Source: Anaerolineae bacterium (GTDB lineage Bacteria; Chloroflexota; Anaerolineae; Anaerolineales; Villigracilaceae). Taken from it: a DNA stretch of 34,017 nt. The DNA lies in assembly GCA_017303655.1 (NCBI GenBank), contig JAFLCE010000047.1:1-34017 (forward strand), written 5' to 3'. Each line of letters begins with the position of its first letter. Positions within the stretch are counted from its first letter, which is position 1. Both the position numbers and the translations under genes were made by a program. Below are positions 5,765 through 16,459 of this stretch, piece after piece. A model generated the notes under the pieces. It was given only the letters and a program-made list of their open reading frames with translations. It ran no database searches and had not been told where the DNA came from.

Positions 5765-7765
5765 TTACGCCAATGCAGCTTCCAATTCTTCCTGTTTCTT
5801 GAACTGGCTCATATACAGGTCGTAATAGAAACCTTTCTTTTCCAACAGTTCGTTGTGCTTGCCGCGTTCGATGATCTGACCGGCTTTGAGCACAAGGATC
5901 TGGTCGGCATTGCGGATGGTGGAAAGACGATGCGCGATGACAAAGGAGGTGCGTCCGCTGAGCAATTGGTCGAAGGCTTTTTGGATGAGACGCTCGGTTC
6001 GTGTGTCCACGCTCGAAGTGGCTTCATCCAAAATGAGAATTCTCGGGTCTGCGAGCGCGGCGCGAGCAATGGACAATAACTGGCGCTGTCCCTGTGAGAG
6101 ACCGGAACCGCGTTCGCCCAACACAGTCTGATATTTTTCCGGCAGGCGTTCAATGAACGAATCGGCGTTGGCGAGTTTGATGGCTGCCATCACTTCTTCG
6201 TCGGTGGCGTCAGGCTTGCCAAAGCGGACATTTTCCATGACGGTGGTGCTGAAGAGGAAAGTATCCTGCAACACGATGCCGACCTGCTTGCGAATGGATT
6301 CGGCGGTGACATCGCGCACATCCACGCCGTCGATCTTGACCGAGCCTTCGGTCACATCGTAGAAGCGCGGCAGAAGGTTGATGATGGTGGTCTTGCCTGC
6401 ACCTGTGGGACCCACAATTGCAAAGGTCTGACCGGGCTGGGCGGTAAAGGAAACACCCTTCAAGACCGGCACGCCATCTTCATATTCATGTGCCACATTC
6501 TCGAACTCCACCAGACCTTTGATCTCGGTCATTGCTTTGGCGTTCGGCTTGTCGAACACGGCGGGTTTTTCATCGAGGATGGTGAAGATGCGTTCGCCGC
6601 CTGCAATCGCGTTTTGGATGTTCGTCCATAAGACGGCGATCTGTTGAATGGGTTGGTTGAAGCGCTGCACATACGCAAGGAAGGTGATGACCAAGCCGAG
6701 TGTGACAGGCGCGCCGCCAAAGTCACCGCCACGGAGCAATGCCCAACCGCCTACGCCAACGACGATTCCCAAAGCGACATAGGATAAAGCTTCCAAGGCA
6801 GGTGCCAGGGCGGAGGTGAAGGACACAGCGCGGACGTTCGCATCGCGATTAGCAGCGTTGACTTCTTTGAAGTTTTCAATGTTTTCTTCAGCACGATTGA
6901 ATGCCTGCACTTCGCGCACGGCCGAGATCGACTCTTGTAATTCCGAGTTGACCGAGCCAATTTCTTCACGCGCTAGGCGGAAGGCTTTACGCGCCTGTGC
7001 TGAGAAGTAGGAAGTGACCCACAACATAATAGGGGCGATTGCCAGGGAGAGCAACGCGAAAGGCAAGCTGCGGGTGACCATGTTGTATGCCGTCCACACC
7101 AGCAGCAGGATGCCGCTGAAGACTTGAACCAGCGCGAACGAGAACGATTGCTCGATGGCGGAGGTGTCGTTAGTGATGCGGCTCATCAAGTCACCGGCTT
7201 CGTGCTCGGCGTAATAGCTGAGCGAAAGGTCGTGCAGGTGATGGAACAAGTCCAGCTTGAGTTCACGCAGCACGTGTTGACCCGTCCACGACATGGTGAA
7301 GAACAAGGTACCGGTGACGATGGCACCCAGCACGAACAAGGCGATGGTGATGAGGATTAATCTCCACAGACCTGCGATGCGTTCTTCATTGGTAGCTGTG
7401 GCGGGGTCGAGGAGTTTGAAGTCACCTAGGTGATACATGGTGGCGATGATCTTCTGCGTGCCGGTTAAGGTGGCAGGGTCTGAGATCAGCCAACAGGCAG
7501 ATGTGGTCACTTCTGCTGAATCAGTTGCCGGTGCGAAAGAGCCGAAGGTACTTCCTCCACCGGTGGGGACGAGGAAACAATCCGCTGCCTGTCCGGTCAA
7601 TTCGGGCGTGGTCACTTGAGTCCAGGTGGAGACGACGATCAAGACCAAAGCGAGGACGAGCACGTACCAGAATTTGCCGAAATATTTTCCGAAGCGGGCG
7701 AGAGTCTCACCGAGGTTGCGGGCTTTGTTGGAGTCGCCTTTGAAGAGATCGCGATTCATCATCAT
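5765..7765 (-). CDS. ABC exporter half-transporter, consensus-site subunit
   Basis: A 666-residue fusion of a six-helix exporter domain and an ATPase. Walker A is GPTGAGKTT (452-460), the signature is LSQGQ (556-560) instead of LSGGQ, Walker B ends ILILDEATSS with catalytic Glu581, and the H-loop is IAHRLST (His612). It has complete Walker A, Walker B and His, but a damaged signature. Its partner has the opposite pattern, as in heterodimeric exporters such as TM287/288 and BmrCD. A long outside loop between TM1 and TM2 (about 55-130) contains Cys63 and Cys91, which could form a disulfide. Its ATG overlaps the upstream stop in an ATGA, indicating coupled translation; the start could instead be the second or third of three consecutive ATGs. 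Confidence 0.93.
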   Translation of the reverse strand: MMMNRDLFKGDSNKARNLGETLARFGKYFGKFWYVLVLALVLIVVSTWTQVTTPELTGQAADCFLVPTGGGSTFGSFAPATDSAEVTTSACWLISDPATLTGTQKIIATMYHLGDFKLLDPATATNEERIAGLWRLILITIALFVLGAIVTGTLFFTMSWTGQHVLRELKLDLFHHLHDLSLSYYAEHEAGDLMSRITNDTSAIEQSFSFALVQVFSGILLLVWTAYNMVTRSLPFALLSLAIAPIMLWVTSYFSAQARKAFRLAREEIGSVNSELQESISAVREVQAFNRAEENIENFKEVNAANRDANVRAVSFTSALAPALEALSYVALGIVVGVGGWALLRGGDFGGAPVTLGLVITFLAYVQRFNQPIQQIAVLWTNIQNAIAGGERIFTILDEKPAVFDKPNAKAMTEIKGLVEFENVAHEYEDGVPVLKGVSFTAQPGQTFAIVGPTGAGKTTIINLLPRFYDVTEGSVKIDGVDVRDVTAESIRKQVGIVLQDTFLFSTTVMENVRFGKPDATDEEVMAAIKLANADSFIERLPEKYQTVLGERGSGLSQGQRQLLSIARAALADPRILILDEATSSVDTRTERLIQKAFDQLLSGRTSFVIAHRLSTIRNADQILVLKAGQIIERGKHNELLEKKGFYYDLYMSQFKKQEELEAALA

Positions 7766-9711
7766 TGGGCACCGCCTTTCTCGTTGGGGAGGATCTGCGA
7801 GTTGTAGATCTCTGCGTAGATGGGGCTGTCTTCCATAAGTTCCTTGTGTTTGCCTTCGGCGACGACCTTGCCTTTTTCGAGCACGATGATTTTGTCTGCG
7901 TTCATCACGGTGCTGATGCGTTGCGCGATGACAAAGGAGGTGCGACCTTTCATGAGCACGTCGAGCGCTTTTTGCAAAGCGGCTTCGGTGCCGAGGTCGA
8001 CCGATGAAGTCGAGTCGTCGAGGATGAGAATGCGCGGGTCGAGTAACAGGGCGCGGGCAATGGCGACGCGTTGTTTTTGTCCGCCGGAAAGTGTGGTGCC
8101 GCGTTCGCCGACATGCGTGTTGTAGCCTTCAGGGAAGGATGTGATGAAGTCATGCGCTTGCGCGGCTTTTGCAGCGGCAAAGATTTCTTCATCGCTGGCA
8201 TCGGGTTTACCAAAGGCGATGTTATCGCGGATGCTGCCACTAAAGAGAGTGGTTTCTTGCAATACGATACCGATCTGCGAGCGCAGCGAGTCGAGAGTCA
8301 CATCGCGCAGTTCGTTGCCATCGATGGTGATGCGTCCTTCGGTCGGGTCGTAGAAGCGCGGCAGTAAGTTAATGATGGTTGTCTTGCCGGAGCCAGTAGC
8401 ACCGAGCAGAGCGATTGTCTCGCCGGATTTCGCTTCAAAGGTGACGTTGGAAAGTACCGGTTCGCCGCCGCCGAAATAACGGAAGGTGACATCTTCGAAC
8501 TTCACATCGCCCTTCACGCCGGGGAGTTTGATGGCATCGGGCTTGTCGGTAATATCTGATTTGGCATCGATGATCTCAAAGATACGCGTAGCAGAAGCAG
8601 AAGCCTGCCCCAACTGTGTGATGATGAAACCAAATTGAGCGATGGGTAAAAAGAGATAGATGAGATACAGCGAAAATTCCTGCCATTCGCCGAGGCTCAA
8701 CGCGCCTGCGATGATCTCCTTGCCACCTACATTCAAGATGGCAGCCTGACCGAGGTTGGCAACCATGAAGATCAACGGAAAGAGGAAGGTGAAGAGTCGT
8801 GCAACCGTAATGGATTGCTGCATGCTGTCATCTGCCGCGACGCGGAATTTTTTCTGTTGTTCCTTCTCGCGCGTAAATGCTTTAATGACTTTCATGCCCG
8901 CCAGATTTTCCTGAAGGATCGTGTTCAAGGTGGAAAGTTTCTGTTGAACCTTTGCGAACAAAGGTTGGCTCAACCCGCCGAAGATCATGAACAAAACAAA
9001 AGCAAGCGGCAGGATCGGCAATGTGGTCAATGCAAGTTTTGTATTGGTGCTGAATAAAATAGTAAGCGTACCCACCAATAAAATGATCGCGCCTACCAGT
9101 TGCAATAAGCCCTGCCCAATGAACAGACGCACCTTTTCCACATCATCCGTCGCGCGGATCATCAACTGACCCGTTTGATTCTTGTCGTGATATGAAAAAG
9201 ACAAACGCTGGATCTTCGCATACAAATCATTGCGCATATCATACGCAACCGCCTGCGAATTTTTCTCTGCCCAATAGGCTTGCAGGAAGGCGAACACTCC
9301 ACGCAGGACGGCGAAGACGATGATGAGGATAATGGCGGTGATCAAAGTCTGTGGGGCGGAGGAAACATCCGCTTCCAACTGGACCTTGAGCTGTTCCACT
9401 GTCCATTCGGCAGGGTACTGCACTGCTTCCAAGATCTTCGGCAGAGCCGCGCTCATGAATGTAGCGGGAATTTTATCCAGCGCCTGTAGGATCTGATCGG
9501 CAATGTATCCGCTGGTGACGGCATCGATAACATTGCGTACCATGCGCGGGACAGCCAACTGTGCCAGTGTGGCGATGATCAAAAATAAATAGGGCAGTGC
9601 CGCCTGCTGTTTGTAATTCATCAAATAGCGGATGGCACGTCCCATTGCGCCGCGCGGTTTGGGTCCGCCGGGGCGTGTACGAGCTTGGGGTCGGGATAGA
9701 GATGCTTGCAA
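7762..9711 (-). CDS. ABC exporter half-transporter, degenerate-site subunit
   Basis: A 649-residue permease-ATPase fusion. Walker A is GATGSGKTT (437-445) and the signature is a full LSGGQ (541-545), but Walker B reads ILILDDSTSS, with Asp566 in place of the catalytic Glu, and the H-loop is IAQRIST, with Gln597 in place of His. It therefore supplies the intact signature to its partner's working site while its own site should bind but hardly hydrolyse ATP. Together they would export lipids, drugs or peptides; the cargo is not visible. The start is TTG at 9711: AAAAGGAG lies 7 bases upstream, whereas the next ATG (residue 23) has no ribosome site. It follows the MarR gene by 86 bp. Confidence 0.93.
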   Translation of the reverse strand: MQASLSRPQARTRPGGPKPRGAMGRAIRYLMNYKQQAALPYLFLIIATLAQLAVPRMVRNVIDAVTSGYIADQILQALDKIPATFMSAALPKILEAVQYPAEWTVEQLKVQLEADVSSAPQTLITAIILIIVFAVLRGVFAFLQAYWAEKNSQAVAYDMRNDLYAKIQRLSFSYHDKNQTGQLMIRATDDVEKVRLFIGQGLLQLVGAIILLVGTLTILFSTNTKLALTTLPILPLAFVLFMIFGGLSQPLFAKVQQKLSTLNTILQENLAGMKVIKAFTREKEQQKKFRVAADDSMQQSITVARLFTFLFPLIFMVANLGQAAILNVGGKEIIAGALSLGEWQEFSLYLIYLFLPIAQFGFIITQLGQASASATRIFEIIDAKSDITDKPDAIKLPGVKGDVKFEDVTFRYFGGGEPVLSNVTFEAKSGETIALLGATGSGKTTIINLLPRFYDPTEGRITIDGNELRDVTLDSLRSQIGIVLQETTLFSGSIRDNIAFGKPDASDEEIFAAAKAAQAHDFITSFPEGYNTHVGERGTTLSGGQKQRVAIARALLLDPRILILDDSTSSVDLGTEAALQKALDVLMKGRTSFVIAQRISTVMNADKIIVLEKGKVVAEGKHKELMEDSPIYAEIYNSQILPNEKGGAQ

Positions 9712-9797
9712 GAGAATACTCCTTTTAAAAATGACGGGTTGAAGATATCAGGTCAATGTGTACGAATGGTGGTGAAGTGGGTCAGGGATTGTGGAGG

Positions 9798-10247
9798 TTA
9801 GTTTTTGTCGCTCATGTTCCTTGCCGCTTCAGTGAGGATGGTTAGCGCTTCAACGACTTTTTCTCTTTCCTCTCCCTTGAGGTTAGATACGAGCTCGTCC
9901 ATCCACTTGTAACGTTCCTTGAAGCCTGCCTCGATCAGTTCTTTGCCCTTGGGGGTAAGCTGTAAAACTTTGGCGCGGCGGTCGCTGGGGTCTTCAGCGC
10001 GTTCGATGTGCTCGCCCTGTACGAGCTTCTCCACCAGTTGACTCGCTGCTGCATTGGAGATGTCGAACCGTTCGCTGATCTCCGACATGCCGCATGGACC
10101 TTTATGATGCAACTGCATCAGGATGCTGAACTGCGGCATCGAAAGCCCAGTCGTCTTGGCGAACTGCGTCCAGCCGCGCATGGAGCGGTGCATGAACACA
10201 TCCATCCAGGTACGCATGGATTGTGAAATGGGGAGGGGTTTGGTCAT
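9798..10247 (-). CDS. MarR-family transcriptional regulator
   Basis: A 149-residue winged-helix regulator. The recognition region CGMSEISERFDISNAAASQLVEKLVQ is followed by the wing EDPSDRRAKVLQLTPKGKEL, the usual MarR DxRxxxLxLTxxG signature. MarR dimers generally repress nearby efflux genes and release DNA on binding a small ligand. It is the first gene before the two ABC exporter genes on the same strand, and a palindrome overlaps its own promoter, so it probably represses itself and the exporter. An AGAAGG lies about 8 bases before the ATG. Confidence 0.92.
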   Translation of the reverse strand: MTKPLPISQSMRTWMDVFMHRSMRGWTQFAKTTGLSMPQFSILMQLHHKGPCGMSEISERFDISNAAASQLVEKLVQGEHIERAEDPSDRRAKVLQLTPKGKELIEAGFKERYKWMDELVSNLKGEEREKVVEALTILTEAARNMSDKN

Positions 10248-10477: not shown

Positions 10478-12094
10478 TCACTTGGATACGTTATGCTTTA
10501 TTTCAGAAACAACCAGTAAAAAGAGTTCCACTGCCTGCGGGTCGAAATGCCTTCCTGATTGCGCACGAATATACTCCAGGACTTTTTCCACAGGCCAGCC
10601 CTTGCGATAGATCCGATCTGAACACAGCGCATCCCACACATCTACAACAGCAAAGAGACGTGCTGCCAATGGGATCTCATCTCCTTTTAGCCCACGCGGA
10701 TAGCCTGTGCCATCCCATTTTTCATGATGACAATAGGGAATATCAAGCGCGGGACGTAGATACTCGATTGGGTATAACATTTCATAGGCAAACAGCGGGT
10801 GTTTGTGCATAATGTCCCACTCTTTGTTCGTAAGTTGATCATCTTTTAAGAGGATCGCATCTGGAATGCCCATTTTCCCAATATCGTGTAAGAGGGCACC
10901 ATGCTTCACATGTAAGATCTCTGCCTCTGTCATGCCTGCCCTCTTTGCAAGCAGCATGGTTAATTCAGTAACACGCGCGGTGTGATCTTTTGTTTCTCGA
11001 TCCCGTAGATCGAGCGCATGTGACCAGCCCTCAATCGTTCGGTTATATGCAAGCGCCAGTTCAAAGTTTGACCGCTGTAGGTCCTCGAAAGATTTCATGC
11101 TTTCAATCGCCATGGCAGCCTGTCCGGCAAGGGTTTCCAGAAAATCATGCCATTCCTGGTCTGGTTGAGTTCCTGAACGGTTTCCTAAAAATAGTACACC
11201 GGCGATATTTCCCTTGGCAATCAATGGAACAGCATAGCAGATTTGAAGTTGTTCGATGTGTGCCCACTTATCCGTTTGTGGAATCGTTGAGTTCAGGTCG
11301 GGAAAAGCCAGCGTGCGACGTTCCAAGGCAGCCCGCCCGATCAAGGTCTCGCCGAGATAAATTTGAGCCCTGGATAGTTCAGAGGATTGAGCGCCGATCA
11401 CCAGTGCCGTTTCAAGGGTGAGCAAAGGAGAATTAAATAGCAGGATCGAGATCAGATCCACATCCAGTTGTCTTTTTGCTTGCTCAGCGACCGTTCGTAA
11501 TCCCACTCGCAGGTCGGTCGTTCCAAGGATTGCGATGTCATTATCCCGAAGTGCTTGAAGGCGAAAAAGTTGCTGTTCAATTTTCTGTTTGGCAGCCGCC
11601 AATTCAGCAGTACGTTGTTCAACGCGTTTATCCAATTCTGCATTGGTATGGGCAAGAGCCCCCTGTAAAAGGCTCAATTCGTTTCGCTTTTGGATTAAAT
11701 TCTGTTCTGTAAGGGCGAATCGGGTCACATCTTCAAATATCACCAGCAGCCCTGAACCAGTTTGCACTGGATCAAAAGGTAAAACATGGAATGTCAGATA
11801 ATATAGCATGCCGTCAGACCGGTAGCGGTTTATCCGTTCGATTTTGAATGAAGGTAATTTATTCGATAGGATGGATTGAAGCACTTCCTCGGATCCAATG
11901 AATTCCTTGAATGCTTCAGTCAGTGGAATGCCTGTTTGGATCTGACCCGTCCCGTCAAATATTCTTGAGATGTTCGGCGACACCTCGATAATGGAGAGTT
12001 TTGAATCAACATATACATATAACAATTGATACCACTCGCTGGCGACTTGCGCCAAACGCGCCGACAATTTCAACGGGGATGTATGTTGGATCAT
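10478..12094 (-). CDS. PAS-GAF-HD-GYP cyclic-di-GMP phosphodiesterase
   Basis: A 538-residue cytoplasmic protein: PAS-like N-terminus (about 15-125), coiled coil (130-175), GAF (about 185-335) and HD-GYP (350-535). The HD-GYP domain has LLHDIGKMGIP (His403-Asp404), HHEKWDGTGYPRGL (456-469) with the intact GYP motif, and VVDVWDAL (Asp485). These are the metal and substrate residues of RpfG-type phosphodiesterases, so hydrolysis of cyclic-di-GMP (or a related dinucleotide) is expected. The start is 3 bases past the small-GTPase stop, with GAAGGGAA as ribosome site, so it is co-transcribed with the GTPase and should be an output or partner of that module. Confidence 0.92.
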   Translation of the reverse strand: MIQHTSPLKLSARLAQVASEWYQLLYVYVDSKLSIIEVSPNISRIFDGTGQIQTGIPLTEAFKEFIGSEEVLQSILSNKLPSFKIERINRYRSDGMLYYLTFHVLPFDPVQTGSGLLVIFEDVTRFALTEQNLIQKRNELSLLQGALAHTNAELDKRVEQRTAELAAAKQKIEQQLFRLQALRDNDIAILGTTDLRVGLRTVAEQAKRQLDVDLISILLFNSPLLTLETALVIGAQSSELSRAQIYLGETLIGRAALERRTLAFPDLNSTIPQTDKWAHIEQLQICYAVPLIAKGNIAGVLFLGNRSGTQPDQEWHDFLETLAGQAAMAIESMKSFEDLQRSNFELALAYNRTIEGWSHALDLRDRETKDHTARVTELTMLLAKRAGMTEAEILHVKHGALLHDIGKMGIPDAILLKDDQLTNKEWDIMHKHPLFAYEMLYPIEYLRPALDIPYCHHEKWDGTGYPRGLKGDEIPLAARLFAVVDVWDALCSDRIYRKGWPVEKVLEYIRAQSGRHFDPQAVELFLLVVSEIKHNVSK

Positions 12095-12097
12095 TGT

Positions 12098-12610
12098 TTA
12101 CATTCCCTTCTCAAGGATATCTGCCAGATGGCTGAAAGCGTCTTCAACCTGCTCCCCGGTTTTTGCACTAGTTAGGAAAAAAAATTTTTCGCCCAACTTT
12201 GCTAGTACGGTAAGCAGGTCGATATCCGAAATGTCGCGTGTATGGGTCAGATCCGCTTTGTTGCACACAAACGCCAGTTGAATGCCCGGGTTGATCGTTC
12301 GAACCTGGCGTGCATAATTTTCAAAAGCGATCAGGGTATCGCGGCGGGTCAGGTCACAGACGATCAACGCGCCCGCAGCTCCCTGCATATAGGAAGCGCC
12401 CGAAGCCTCAAACCCATTGCTGCCAGCCAGGTCCCAGACCATCATATTCATTTCCCCATACGATCGTTTGAGTGTTTTGCGTGATATTTTCACACCAACG
12501 GTACTGAGATACTTGTCGTCAAAGCGACCTTCGACAAAGCGCTGCACAAGGCTTGTCTTGCCTACGCCGAAATCGCCCAGCAAACATATCTTTTTTTGAA
12601 TAATGGTCAT
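12098..12610 (-). CDS. Ras/Rab-like small GTPase
   Basis: A 170-residue single-domain GTPase. G1 is GDFGVGKTS (12-20), the switch-I threonine is in YLSTVGVKIS, G3 is WDLAGSNGF, G4 is CNKADL and G5 is TSAKTG. In Ras and Rab G3 is WDTAGQE; here Ser takes the place of the catalytic Gln, so hydrolysis is probably slow and dependent on a partner. There is no C-terminal lipidation motif. Bacterial relatives include MglA-type and Roc-type GTPases, usually paired with roadblock/longin partners; the neighbour encoded 13 bp upstream has such a domain. The bacterial start ATG follows a GAAGATTAAG region with a weak ribosome site. Confidence 0.92.
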   Translation of the reverse strand: MTIIQKKICLLGDFGVGKTSLVQRFVEGRFDDKYLSTVGVKISRKTLKRSYGEMNMMVWDLAGSNGFEASGASYMQGAAGALIVCDLTRRDTLIAFENYARQVRTINPGIQLAFVCNKADLTHTRDISDIDLLTVLAKLGEKFFFLTSAKTGEQVEDAFSHLADILEKGM

Positions 12611-12623
12611 CTTAATCTTCCGA

Positions 12624-14195
12624 TCATGGATTGGCAGTTGGGGTAATTTGCCCGGGTGGCACAGTGGCTAACACGGTGATCCAGCGCGCAGGCACCCAGC
12701 CGCGATGATAGCCCGTTTCATCGGTCCATTCCACCTCCACCCAGGTATCATAGACGGACAACACTTTTACAGGTCTGCTGATAAACAACACTTCCACACG
12801 CGAGTCAATGAAATCTGGAAGCTGCCGCATCCACACATTACCGGAAGCGAAGGCTTCATATGGGGTGGGGGTCGCGCTGGGCGTTGAAGTACTCGTTGGG
12901 CTGGCGGTCACTGTGGGGGTGAAGGTTTGTGTTGGGGTAGAAGTGGGTGTAAATGTAGGCGTTGACGTTGCAGTGGCTGTAGGTGTCGACGTGGCAGTGT
13001 TCGTTGCGGTGGGGCTGGGGAATGCGACCGGATATAAGGCGATGGTGAATTGAAGGTAAAAGCACATCAAAGCAATCAATAGAATTGCAACCAACCCACC
13101 GATTGCCCAACCTATCTTGGCATTGCGGGTCATCGTGGTTGGCCATGGATTACTTCCTGTGGTTTCCACTACGAGGCGGGCGATCTTTGGCTGTAAATTG
13201 GGCAGGGTCGATGGATCGCCATTATATTGAGCCAGCGATTTTTCATACTTTACATGTAATTCGGATACGAACATGTGCAGTTTGGCACGAAATCCCTCCG
13301 GTTCTGTACCGGTGATGACCACTGCCAGGTATGCAGCTCGTCCGTTCTGAATGATGATGCGTTCATCGCCATACTGCACTTCATCCAGTTCTTTGTTTTC
13401 ATCGCCATGCCCGAACGAGTCGCGCACAAAATCTCGAATGGCAGTTAACATGCCGCTGATCAGATCTGAGTCGGCAACTTCCGTGCTGCCGGGGTGGCTG
13501 TGCGCGAGCAATAGTCCAGACCCGTGCTGGATAAGAAATATCTCACGAATGGAAAAGGGGAGAGAATCGCGCAACGTTAACTGCGCCGGTGAGACACCTC
13601 GCAAGCGCGCCATAGCCGTGCGCAGCATACTTTGCGGACCGAAAGACGCCTTCAACCGGGCATCAATGTTACGTTGAAATTCCTTTGCAAACTCGCCGAC
13701 TGCACGCTGGACACTTTCACCGATGACGGGATACAGGGCTTCAACCATATCCTTGCGAGAATCACGGATCTGCACCCGGATCGCTTCCCCCATGATGGGA
13801 CCGAGCGCCTCTGCCATCTCGTCGCGTGAGTCGCGAATGGTGCGGCTGATCATATCCCCGAGGACGGGTGTGACGCGCGCGATCAGTCCTTCTGAATCGG
13901 CTTGTGCCCTGCGGCGCAGTATCTCGATTTCTGTCTGTAGATCGCGTGATCGGGTATCTGCTTCACGAGCAACCTGCTGTAAGCGGTCAAGTTCCGCTAG
14001 CAGTTCGTCTAATTGTTGACGCAGGTTTTCGTCATCTGATTGAGATTGATCTTTGGAGGTTTCGATCTGACGTTCAATATCGCGCAGGCGGTCGAACACT
14101 TCCGAGAGCAGAATCGAACGGATGGAAATTAACGGGTCAAGTGAATCGCCTTCAGGTCGTTCAGGGGTTGGGTTATCGGGCTGAAGGGGATTCAT
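12624..14195 (-). CDS. Coiled-coil/longin-like protein with TM and external SH3b
   Basis: A 523-residue membrane protein. Residues 25-100 form a coiled coil; 108-180 hold three 23-residue repeats beginning PVLGDMI, PIMGEAI and PVIGESV. Residues 213-320 (REIFLIQHGSGLLLAHSHP ... DSDLISGMLTAIRDFV) resemble a longin/roadblock-like domain, which I recall from OmpA-family proteins encoded beside small GTPases in other phyla. One TM helix lies at about 361-390, then a Thr/Pro/Ser linker (393-445), then an SH3b-like domain (451-510, with WVEVEW and GWVPARWI). The likely topology is coiled coil and longin inside, SH3b outside, where it could bind the cell wall. It would recruit or regulate the GTPase encoded 13 bp downstream. 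Confidence 0.85.
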   Translation of the reverse strand: MNPLQPDNPTPERPEGDSLDPLISIRSILLSEVFDRLRDIERQIETSKDQSQSDDENLRQQLDELLAELDRLQQVAREADTRSRDLQTEIEILRRRAQADSEGLIARVTPVLGDMISRTIRDSRDEMAEALGPIMGEAIRVQIRDSRKDMVEALYPVIGESVQRAVGEFAKEFQRNIDARLKASFGPQSMLRTAMARLRGVSPAQLTLRDSLPFSIREIFLIQHGSGLLLAHSHPGSTEVADSDLISGMLTAIRDFVRDSFGHGDENKELDEVQYGDERIIIQNGRAAYLAVVITGTEPEGFRAKLHMFVSELHVKYEKSLAQYNGDPSTLPNLQPKIARLVVETTGSNPWPTTMTRNAKIGWAIGGLVAILLIALMCFYLQFTIALYPVAFPSPTATNTATSTPTATATSTPTFTPTSTPTQTFTPTVTASPTSTSTPSATPTPYEAFASGNVWMRQLPDFIDSRVEVLFISRPVKVLSVYDTWVEVEWTDETGYHRGWVPARWITVLATVPPGQITPTANP

Positions 14196-14290
14196 GAAGG
14201 TTTACAAGGAATGATACAGACGTACCAGGAATGCTTCACCTAGTACATTGCGAAATTTAAACAAGACGTGGTGCTTTCTGTGGAACGAAA

Positions 14291-14986
14291 TCAGGAATTA
14301 TCAGCTTCCTGTCGCAAACGCAGACCTAACTCCATAAGCATTTGACCCAGATCCTGACGCGAGGTCTTTTTGTTTTCCAAGGAAGCAGCCATGGAAAGAA
14401 GCTCCTGCCTTAAACTATCGTCGCGCTGGCGGGCTTCCGATTGCAGGGTGCGGGTCCGCTCGGTTTGTTCGGCGCTTTGTTTATCCAAACGATCGCTTAA
14501 TTCCTTATGGGTTTCGCGAAGCTGACGTAGGAGATCAGCGGCAAGTTTTTCAAGGTTATCGCTTAATTGTTTTTGACCGGCTTGCAATTGAGATGACTGT
14601 TCTGCAGATTGTCGATCCAATTTTTCGGTCAGGTCTTTGTGTGAGGCGCGCAGCTGGGCAGATTGATCCGTGCCCTGCTTATCGAGCTTCTCATTAAAAT
14701 CGCGCCGGGTTTCTGCAAATTGTGCGTTGGTCGATTCGGAGAGAGTTCCAATTTGATCCTGCACCAGGTTGGTCATTTCCTGGCGTAATGATCGAAGCCC
14801 TGTTTCCAGGTCGCTCAACCTTTTTTCAAGAGTACGCGATTGCGAGCCAAATAAAATATCGCGCAATCGCCCCAATTCATCAGCGGTTGGTTCAGGTGTG
14901 TCTGCCTTCACTTCGATGCCATCAAGAGGAGACGCTGACGCCGAAGGTTGCGTTTCGGTTACTACGGAAGAATTTGATTTGCCCAT
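14291..14986 (-). CDS. Coiled-coil protein of the GTPase operon
   Basis: A 231-residue soluble protein with no enzyme motif. After a low-complexity start it has DELGRLRDILFGSQSRTLEK (an LRxxLFG motif also seen, as I recall, at the head of OmpA-like proteins linked to small GTPases), then a long coiled coil of about 160 residues. The coiled coil contains four versions of a repeat such as DLTEKLDRQSAEQSSQLQA, KQLSDNLEKLAADLLRQLRE and KELSDRLDKQSAEQ, spaced about 22-23 residues. The start is the ATG at 14986 with GGAAG 8 bases upstream; an in-frame start at 15124 would cross the promoter. It is first in the operon and probably a scaffold. Confidence 0.82.
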   Translation of the reverse strand: MGKSNSSVVTETQPSASASPLDGIEVKADTPEPTADELGRLRDILFGSQSRTLEKRLSDLETGLRSLRQEMTNLVQDQIGTLSESTNAQFAETRRDFNEKLDKQGTDQSAQLRASHKDLTEKLDRQSAEQSSQLQAGQKQLSDNLEKLAADLLRQLRETHKELSDRLDKQSAEQTERTRTLQSEARQRDDSLRQELLSMAASLENKKTSRQDLGQMLMELGLRLRQEADNS

Positions 14987-15016
14987 TTTGGTCACTTCCT
15001 TTCGAAGATTTATCAG

Positions 15017-15022
15017 ATTATA
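15017..15022 (-). promoter_or_regulatory. -10 box (TATAAT) for the GTPase operon
   Basis: A perfect TATAAT on the minus strand, with predicted start near 15010 and a leader of about 24 bases carrying GGAAG before the ATG at 14986. No good -35 is present at 17 bases, so an activator may be needed. Confidence 0.5.
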
Positions 15023-15108
15023 CACTTCTTCAAAATGCCCGGCGATTGCAAATAAGATAAGATGCGCCTCCCCGGTAGGCTTATAGGTTTGCAAAATTAT
15101 GGCTATAT

Positions 15109-15140
15109 AAAAAAATACATTCACTTTCAGGTGAATGTAT
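15109..15140 (-). terminator. Intrinsic terminator 2 upstream of the GTPase operon
   Basis: ATACATTCAC (15115-15124) pairs with GTGAATGTAT (15131-15140) in a perfect 10-bp stem with a 6-base loop, followed on the minus strand by a run of seven T. It is the second of two terminators in tandem, with no protein gene upstream on this strand. Confidence 0.75.
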
Positions 15141-15160
15141 CGCGGCGTAAATTGGCATTA

Positions 15161-15229
15161 AAAACGACGAGGTCGTCCGTGAAGGACGACCTCGTCAACT
15201 CTCTCCTACCAATAAATACCAGTAAATGT
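15161..15229 (-). ncRNA. Candidate small RNA with terminal hairpin
   Basis: The 372-bp gap 14987-15358 has no protein gene. On the minus strand TACAAT (15241-15236) lies 17 bases after TTGCAT, predicting a start near 15229. The transcript would run about 50 bases and then into a perfect 13-bp stem (15166-15178 with 15184-15196, loop GTGAA on the plus strand) followed by GTTTTT, a good intrinsic terminator, with a second terminator 20 bases on. This gives an RNA of about 65-70 nt (or about 120 with read-through). No known RNA family is recognised. The hairpins could instead form an attenuated leader of the GTPase operon. Confidence 0.45.
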
Positions 15230-15358
15230 ATCTGTATTGTACGGGTTGTACGCCCTGCATGCAATTAGACAAAAGTACTATAGCTCGGTGAAAGAGGCTA
15301 TCCCGCTAATATAACTACCTCCTTATACTTAATGGTAAGATACCTTTATTGGGTCGTT

Positions 15359-16459
15359 ATGCATAAAATATTCATTAGTTACTCGCGTAAAGATATTACC
15401 TTCATTCGCAAATTGGCAGGCGATTTGGAAGCCACCAGCTATGACGTGTGGTGGGATCTGACCGATCTGCGCGGCGGCGATGACTGGGTGAAAAAGATCC
15501 CGGCTGCCATTCAAGAAAGTGATTTCTTTGTGATCGTGCTTACGCCAAACTCGATCCAATCTGAATGGGTACAAAAAGAATATACTCAAGCGCTTAACTT
15601 CCGCAAAAAGATCATCCCGATCATGTTCGAACAATGTGATGTCCCTTTTGCGCTTAACACCATTAACTTCGTTAACTTCATGGGGACAGACTATATCGCG
15701 AGTTTTAGAAACCTGTTATCGTCACTTGGATATAGCGGCACACCGCCAGAGATCACTCCATACGAACGGGTGACAACTCTTCTGCCAGCACCAGTTCGTA
15801 AATACGCTGCTCCTCTGGCTGTGGCTTTTGTGATCTTGATCGCATTCGCGCTTCTTTTCTGGCCCAAACCTGATTCTCAGCCCCCAATCTTATCGGCGAC
15901 CGAAACAGATTCACCGACATCCACATTGACCGCCAGTGCCACGGTTACCATCACAGTAACTGCCAATGTGCCAACGCCCACACCAACCGTCACTGAAGTA
16001 AAAGCCTCGGTAACACCGACCAGCACCAATCCACCGTTCGAGGCGCTGACCTTCTGTGTAAATTCATTGTATTCCAACACCATCAACGTCCGTTCTGGTC
16101 CCGGCACCAATTATGCAGTGATCGGCGAGCCGTTAAGAGTTGGCAAGTGTCTGAGTTTTCGTGCTGTGAATGAGTCTGCCACCTGGCTTTTGATTTCTTC
16201 GAACCAAGCCGACCCTGAATTCCAACAATACGAAGGCGGTTGGATTTTTCGTGAACTGCTTGGGCTTGGCAGAGACGGTTCGCTTGATCTGCCCGCTGCC
16301 ACGCTGACTTTCACACCGACGTCCTCACTCACGCCAACAGCATCAAATACACCTACCATCACACCATCGCCCACGGTTACGCCAACTGATACTCCCACGG
16401 TCACGCCATCGCCGACCGATACCGAAACACCTGAACCGAGCCCAACACCTACACCATAA
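15359..16459 (+). CDS. Membrane TIR-domain protein with external SH3b
   Basis: A 366-residue protein. The TIR domain (1-130) starts MHKIFISYSRKD and contains SEWVQKEY, where Trp70 and Glu74 match the WxxxE of catalytic TIR NADases. One TM helix lies at about 147-168, then a Thr/Pro linker (180-226), an SH3b-like domain (230-300: NTINVRSGPGTNYAVIG ... GGWIFREL) with Cys233 and Cys264, and a second Thr/Pro tail (315-366). The TIR should be cytoplasmic and SH3b external. The same outer half occurs in the GTPase-operon membrane protein read away from it. The start is the ATG directly before HKIFISYSRKD; an ATG at 15332 would sit 3 bases from a TATACT (15323-15328) that is better read as the -10 box. 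A role in NAD signalling or defence is inferred. Confidence 0.9.
   Translation: MHKIFISYSRKDITFIRKLAGDLEATSYDVWWDLTDLRGGDDWVKKIPAAIQESDFFVIVLTPNSIQSEWVQKEYTQALNFRKKIIPIMFEQCDVPFALNTINFVNFMGTDYIASFRNLLSSLGYSGTPPEITPYERVTTLLPAPVRKYAAPLAVAFVILIAFALLFWPKPDSQPPILSATETDSPTSTLTASATVTITVTANVPTPTPTVTEVKASVTPTSTNPPFEALTFCVNSLYSNTINVRSGPGTNYAVIGEPLRVGKCLSFRAVNESATWLLISSNQADPEFQQYEGGWIFRELLGLGRDGSLDLPAATLTFTPTSSLTPTASNTPTITPSPTVTPTDTPTVTPSPTDTETPEPSPTPTP

Follow-up and report, generated by a model that had tools for sequence, protein, structure and literature searches.

A Group 1 Rup GTPase module with a predicted longin-fold membrane protein and an HD-GYP output in an Anaerolineae genome

What kind of system is encoded when the gene for a small GTPase lies between those for a membrane protein with an SH3b-like end and a predicted cyclic di-GMP (c-di-GMP) phosphodiesterase? 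The question is raised by contig JAFLCE010000047.1 of an Anaerolineae bacterium of the Villigracilaceae (assembly GCA_017303655.1), of which positions 1 to 34,017 of the forward strand were analyzed as one stretch of DNA (the window). As described in an earlier sequence-only reading, four open reading frames (ORFs) follow one another on the minus strand with spacings of 95, 13, and 3 bp, encoding a coiled-coil protein (P0004), a membrane protein (P0003), a GTPase (P0002), and an output enzyme (P0001). That reading took a link of this kind to be probably undescribed; the genes are in fact the Group 1 Rup set, catalogued in 2014. The module is real and conserved, and the window copy is a variant with an SH3b domain and an HD-GYP output. 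What we add is a structural identification: the predicted fold suggests that the middle domain of P0003 is a longin, and fold and profile together point to a PAS domain at the N terminus of the output. Given these two identifications, the function of the module becomes testable.

Group 1 Rup GTPases, according to the passages on them in Wuichet and Søgaard-Andersen (2014, PMC4316618), lack the G3 glutamine and have three conserved neighbors; Chloroflexi are among the hosts, and the set was catalogued with no function known. The neighbors are a coiled-coil protein, a protein with a conserved domain, often with a transmembrane segment and OmpA, and an output protein with an invariant N-terminal glutamine, typically carrying GGDEF/EAL or histidine kinase domains. 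All four components resemble those of the window: P0004 is a coiled-coil protein whose gene is found by a family hidden Markov model beside the longin gene, P0003 has the conserved domain and the transmembrane helix, P0002 has the G1 to G5 motifs of the Ras superfamily with Ser64 in place of the G3 glutamine, and P0001 has an invariant glutamine, Gln135, probably the one in the sequence logo of that paper. The host phylum agrees, and related modules lie on Nostoc and rhizobial plasmids. The 2014 paper also reports transcription of a Group 1 Rup gene in Nostoc punctiforme. The window module differs in its outer end, which is SH3b where that of Rup is "often" OmpA, and in its GAF-HD-GYP output. 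The assignment to Group 1 Rup is made by these component features, with the Nostoc and rhizobial modules standing in for the published sequences. Sections 16-18 of the 2014 paper give no fold for the membrane-protein domain or for the output N terminus.

Conservation of the module is evident from a scan of GTDB contigs with an 11-sequence alignment, which gave 525 confirmed relatives; locus counts cover the best 80 (named loci). Most belong to Chloroflexota (Anaerolineae, Chloroflexus, Oscillochloris, and Herpetosiphonaceae); beyond that phylum are two KSB1 bins, one unassigned bacterium, and one Calditrichaceae bin, which has coiled coil and longin only, on a short contig. All four genes are present in 66 of the 80 named loci (coiled coil in 76, GTPase in 70, PAS-output in 69) and in 42 of the 46 loci whose flanks both extend 2.5 kb or more; in 10 of the 14 loci without the full set, the longin gene lies less than 2.5 kb from the locus end. 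The arrangement seen most often is coiled coil, longin, GTPase, and output; GTPase-first and divergent orders occur too. Ten loci have no GTPase neighbor; in five of these genomes that were searched, the GTPase was elsewhere in four, each time adjoining a PAS-output, and absent from one. Among 72,556 plasmid records, longin and GTPase queries run separately matched the same four. Those of Nostoc and Rhizobium sp. 007 carry all four genes by profile, the Rhizobium PAS match reaching just 3e-4. The Mesorhizobium plasmid encodes a coiled-coil protein, a longin-OmpA protein, and a GTPase beside an annotated cyclase; the annotations read hypothetical protein, OmpA family protein, Rab family GTPase, and adenylate/guanylate cyclase. 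Its OmpA family protein is a homolog (30.2% over 92% of the query, 5e-27), and its cyclase had no match to the PAS profile. The fourth record is Rhizobium sp. CC1099. These results bear out the proposal that the module is conserved, and the conserved adjacency strongly implies the link from GTPase to output that the sequence-only reading had drawn.

Table 1. Features of the module and its divergent neighbor in the window
Feature	Positions	Strand	Basis
P0004, cytoplasmic coiled-coil protein, 231 aa, first gene of module	14291..14986	-	ORF, ATG, upstream AAAGGAAG
P0003, coiled coil - longin - TM (transmembrane) - Pro/Thr-rich linker - SH3b protein, 523 aa	12624..14195	-	
Longin-fold domain (predicted), P0003 residues ~215-344	13164..13553	-	predicted fold
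Transmembrane helix (putative), P0003 residues ~360-386	13038..13118	-	hydrophobic stretch read from sequence
SH3b-like C-terminal domain, P0003 residues ~449-509	12669..12851	-	homolog L040
P0002, Ras-superfamily GTPase, 170 aa, Rab-like, Group 1 Rup type	12098..12610	-	Pfam Ras
P0001, PAS - signaling helix - GAF - HD-GYP phosphodiesterase (predicted), 538 aa	10478..12094	-	Pfam, motif reading
PAS domain (predicted), P0001 residues ~22-123, common to outputs of system	11726..12031	-	
Codon of invariant Gln135 of P0001, helix after PAS	11690..11692	-	alignments
HD-GYP domain, P0001 residues 360-520	10535..11017	-	Pfam
TIR - TM - Pro/Thr-rich - SH3b-like protein, divergent neighbor	15332-16459	+	TIR_2 5.9e-30, SH3_3 0.065

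The sequence-only reading had assigned a longin/roadblock-like domain to P0003, and the longin half of this stands at the level of the predicted fold. By DSSP, the predicted model has the longin topology of two strands, a helix, three strands, and two C-terminal helices, and 124 of 127 residues align with Sec22b at a root mean square deviation of 2.6. Several searches weigh against the identification. A Pfam scan above cut-offs gave nothing for P0003 or P0004; longin and roadblock models are absent among the 25 of 68 Pfam families listed for 69 family members; and Pfam Longin gave nothing above its cut-off in the window genome or in 14 control genomes. On sequence profiles, roadblock identity was rejected: Robl_LC7 had no match in the window, the two PF03259 matches of the genome lying on other contigs (C13 and C29), and hhalign comparison of the domain family with roadblock was not significant (probability 0.06 to 0.8 out of 100). 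By fold, MglB is among the Foldseek matches of the domain (1j3w, E 5e-4); the 50 VIA matches listed include neither MglB nor any other roadblock chain, which leaves room for such matches beyond the list. The outer end of P0003 was recognized through a homolog, L040, which matches SH3_3 at 5.4e-10 and P0003 at 5e-13 by phmmer. SH3_3 is present in 43 of 83 family members and OmpA in 4, and other related proteins have OmpA or BON in place of SH3b; the SH3b end might act as a sensor.

The alignments, each with the window sequence added, cover longin loci (A4, 68 of 80), PAS stretches (A5, 74 of 83), GTPases (A6, 61 of 70), and outputs (A7, 89 of 91); a further one, A8, holds 82 of 82. Near-copies and a few others were left out of A4 to A6, and two cut-off ORFs out of A7. 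P0001 matches HD_5 (6.5e-37) and GAF_2 (8e-12) and contains the HD, HH, and GYP motif residues (HDIGK and HHEKWDGTGYP), consistent with a predicted c-di-GMP phosphodiesterase of the HD-GYP type. Fold and profile suggest that the N-terminal region shared by the outputs is a PAS domain, and Gln135, in the predicted model, lies in the helix leaving it. Run over the genome that contains the window, the PAS profile matched the P0001 gene and, weakly (3e-4), one other place. The breakdown of c-di-GMP, which had been taken for the point of the system, is a feature of few copies: HD-GYP occurs in 4 of 90 outputs scanned and EAL in 2. Two of the three GTPases nearest P0002 by tree path, from Anaerolineales bins L060 and L078, also have an HD-GYP output. 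On the tree, outputs were labeled from motif patterns, with 7 of 78 rows unlabeled and 6, including L112, set by hand. Eight changes of output type are needed with these labels, or 15 if 13 unknown rows count as a group; these counts are not secure, because well-supported branches alone force just one change per group.

Some outputs are of other kinds. PAS-helix proteins with no enzyme domain stand alone in four modules (L107:7926-8390, L109:7896-8384, L062:9096-9527, and L101:7209-7679). In the KSB1 bins and the unassigned bacterium, PAS is fused to a sigma-54 activator with a Fis-type helix-turn-helix (L106:8215-9594, L112:8204-9580, and L125:8003-9394; domains were read per protein for L106 and L125 and inferred from the Pfam tally for L112), which would give the module direct control of transcription. 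Two adjoining PAS-outputs of different enzyme type share one GTPase in seven loci (L041:2685-4669, L061, L068, L072, L075, L081, and L084), for example, GGDEF with a class III cyclase or a kinase with a cyclase, and one switch may there drive two messengers.

Taken together, the findings make it probable that the window module is of the Group 1 Rup type and controls an HD-GYP output, with the longin domain as a docking platform and the GTPase switching that output through the PAS-helix. The outer SH3b end of P0003 would hold the protein in the envelope, and its longin domain, on the cytoplasmic side, would dock the Rab-like GTPase as a guanine nucleotide exchange factor (GEF) or GTPase-activating protein (GAP), on the model of the longin/roadblock domains that serve Rab, Arf, and MglA. 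The GTPase might in turn bind the PAS-plus-helix region, the site of the invariant glutamine, and so switch the fused output, in the window a c-di-GMP phosphodiesterase. The signal would run from envelope to longin, GTPase, PAS, and enzyme, a direction proposed because of topology and precedent.

How the GTPase is switched could be read otherwise. P0002 matches Pfam Ras (E 4.9e-34), and its closest resemblance in sequence is to Rab proteins: among the 60 matches listed of 724 in the PDB, 57 bear Rab, Ypt, or Sec4 names and 3 generic ones, and one Rab listed is from Thorarchaeota. Ser64 occupies what we take to be the site of Ras Gln61, and a phenylalanine what is presumably that of Gly12; both the Ras numbering and the effect of changes at these sites are assumed here. 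The G3 glutamine is absent from all 62 aligned GTPases (Ser in 29, Gly in 27, and other residues in 6), whereas the PAS-helix glutamine is invariant in all 75 rows of the PAS alignment and all 90 of the output alignment. This complementarity favors a tentative alternative, in line with a suggestion made in the 2014 paper (PMC4316618): the PAS-helix would be the GAP, its glutamine completing the active site in trans, with the longin protein as exchange factor and the output as both regulator and effector. The glutamine is, however, modeled in the helix leaving PAS, from where its reach to the GTPase active site is uncertain, and an invariant glutamine in a signaling helix could serve dimer packing. 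It is unlikely that the GTPase is instead a slow or nonhydrolyzing scaffold, switched by partner binding and not by GTP turnover. Phe (60/62) or Tyr (2/62) at the Gly12 site, with no equivalent of Gln61, would fit such a scaffold, but the P-loop lysine is kept in 62 of 62 GTPases and N117, K118, and D120 of the G4 motif each in 61, so nucleotide binding is under selection, and catalysis may come from a partner.

The co-occurrence of the parts was surveyed in 301 genomes of the phylum with profile cut-offs of E 1e-10 (longin), 1e-40 (GTPase), and 1e-10 (PAS), the GTPase value being chosen after a gap between close and distant GTPases had appeared. Longin was found in 13 genomes, GTPase in 14, and PAS in 15, the same 13 being common to all three, and the same gene set surrounds the longin-region and GTPase matches. 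Longin and GTPase would coincide by chance with a probability of 7e-22 counted over genomes and 2e-10 over genera, uncorrected for kinship; 10 of the 13 genomes are from one family. Some of these results count against the preferred mechanism. The module is rare, at 13 of 301 genomes, and a close GTPase occurs in 3 of the 37 genomes of the window's genus. GTPase and PAS-output but no longin were found in G036 and G146 (both 98% complete) and in G006 (85%, short contig), the two genes of G146 lying on separate contigs; in G355, longin and coiled coil occur without such a GTPase; and G272 has a weaker PAS match (3e-11), the other parts being absent. Genomes with GTPase and PAS in which longin was not found, and module halves that may lie apart in a genome or have divergent transcription, would suit an envelope-anchored assembly of coiled coil and longin-SH3b that merely positions the GTPase-output pair, the longin having no catalytic or gating role. 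We regard this as less likely still than a scaffold GTPase: the halves co-occur strongly, and many known longin-fold members bind small GTPases, as parts of two studies record (PMC3521125, PMC10933270). That the four genes are coincidental neighbors is barely credible, for although order and strand differ among loci, 66 of 80 named loci hold all four, and the set recurs on plasmids from other phyla.

The surroundings of the module were also inspected. The best PADLOC matches of the divergent TIR gene are TIR-Argonaute proteins, with Thoeris ThsB further down; as a fifth member it was rejected, since phmmer with its TIR part against the ORFs of loci L037-L142 returned the window's own copy alone. 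Upstream of the coiled-coil gene, at 15114-15197 (minus strand), are two hairpins, one being a 14-pair G+C-rich stem followed by T. A riboswitch in this leader was rejected: Rfam models matched nothing in 14900-15400 at E values up to 5, and nothing in the whole window at gathering score. Downstream, at 5765-10247 (minus strand), lie genes for a MarR-type regulator and then two ABC exporters (membrane and ATPase domains), ordinary in appearance.

Of the known systems, the actinobacterial conservon CvnA-D likewise joins a sensor-type protein, a partner, and a Ras-like GTPase in one operon, as described in parts of two papers (PMC4316618, PMC13343842); its GTPase is of the MglA family, its partner is a roadblock, and its membrane sensor is itself the kinase, with no longin-transmembrane protein. 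A literature search covering few subscription journals turned up neither later work on the Group 1 Rup module nor any report of a longin in it. A 2012 analysis (PMC3521125) states that longins derived from roadblocks around the origin of eukaryotes, and a 2024 study (PMC10933270) reports longin homologs in Asgard archaea, the GTPase genes of MK-D1 lying generally outside operons with them; both statements are taken from parts of these papers. That Table 1 of PMC4917890 already records the roadblock/longin superfamily as a whole in bacteria lessens the surprise. The MglA/MglB polarity switch also pairs a small GTPase with a partner of this superfamily, but MglB is a roadblock, and P0003 has no Robl_LC7 match. 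In eukaryotes, longins pair with Rab or Arf GTPases in Mon1-Ccz1/Ypt7, TRAPP/Rab1, the signal recognition particle receptor, and the small subunits of AP and COPI. The window module differs in being operonic with a PAS-linked signaling enzyme and in showing no sign of vesicle traffic. The longin shape of P0003 nevertheless relates it to the known partners of such switches in eukaryotes, and we give about even chances to the wider reading that the "unknown" Group 1 Rup domain is a bacterial longin whose operon partner is a Rab-like GTPase, a counterpart of the eukaryotic longin-Rab pairs in which an envelope-anchored longin receptor would load the GTPase, to be read by a PAS-helix fusible to at least six output types. 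If true, this would place the longin-GTPase pairing in bacteria and, with the longin partner in the same operon, provide Rup with a concrete, testable biochemistry.
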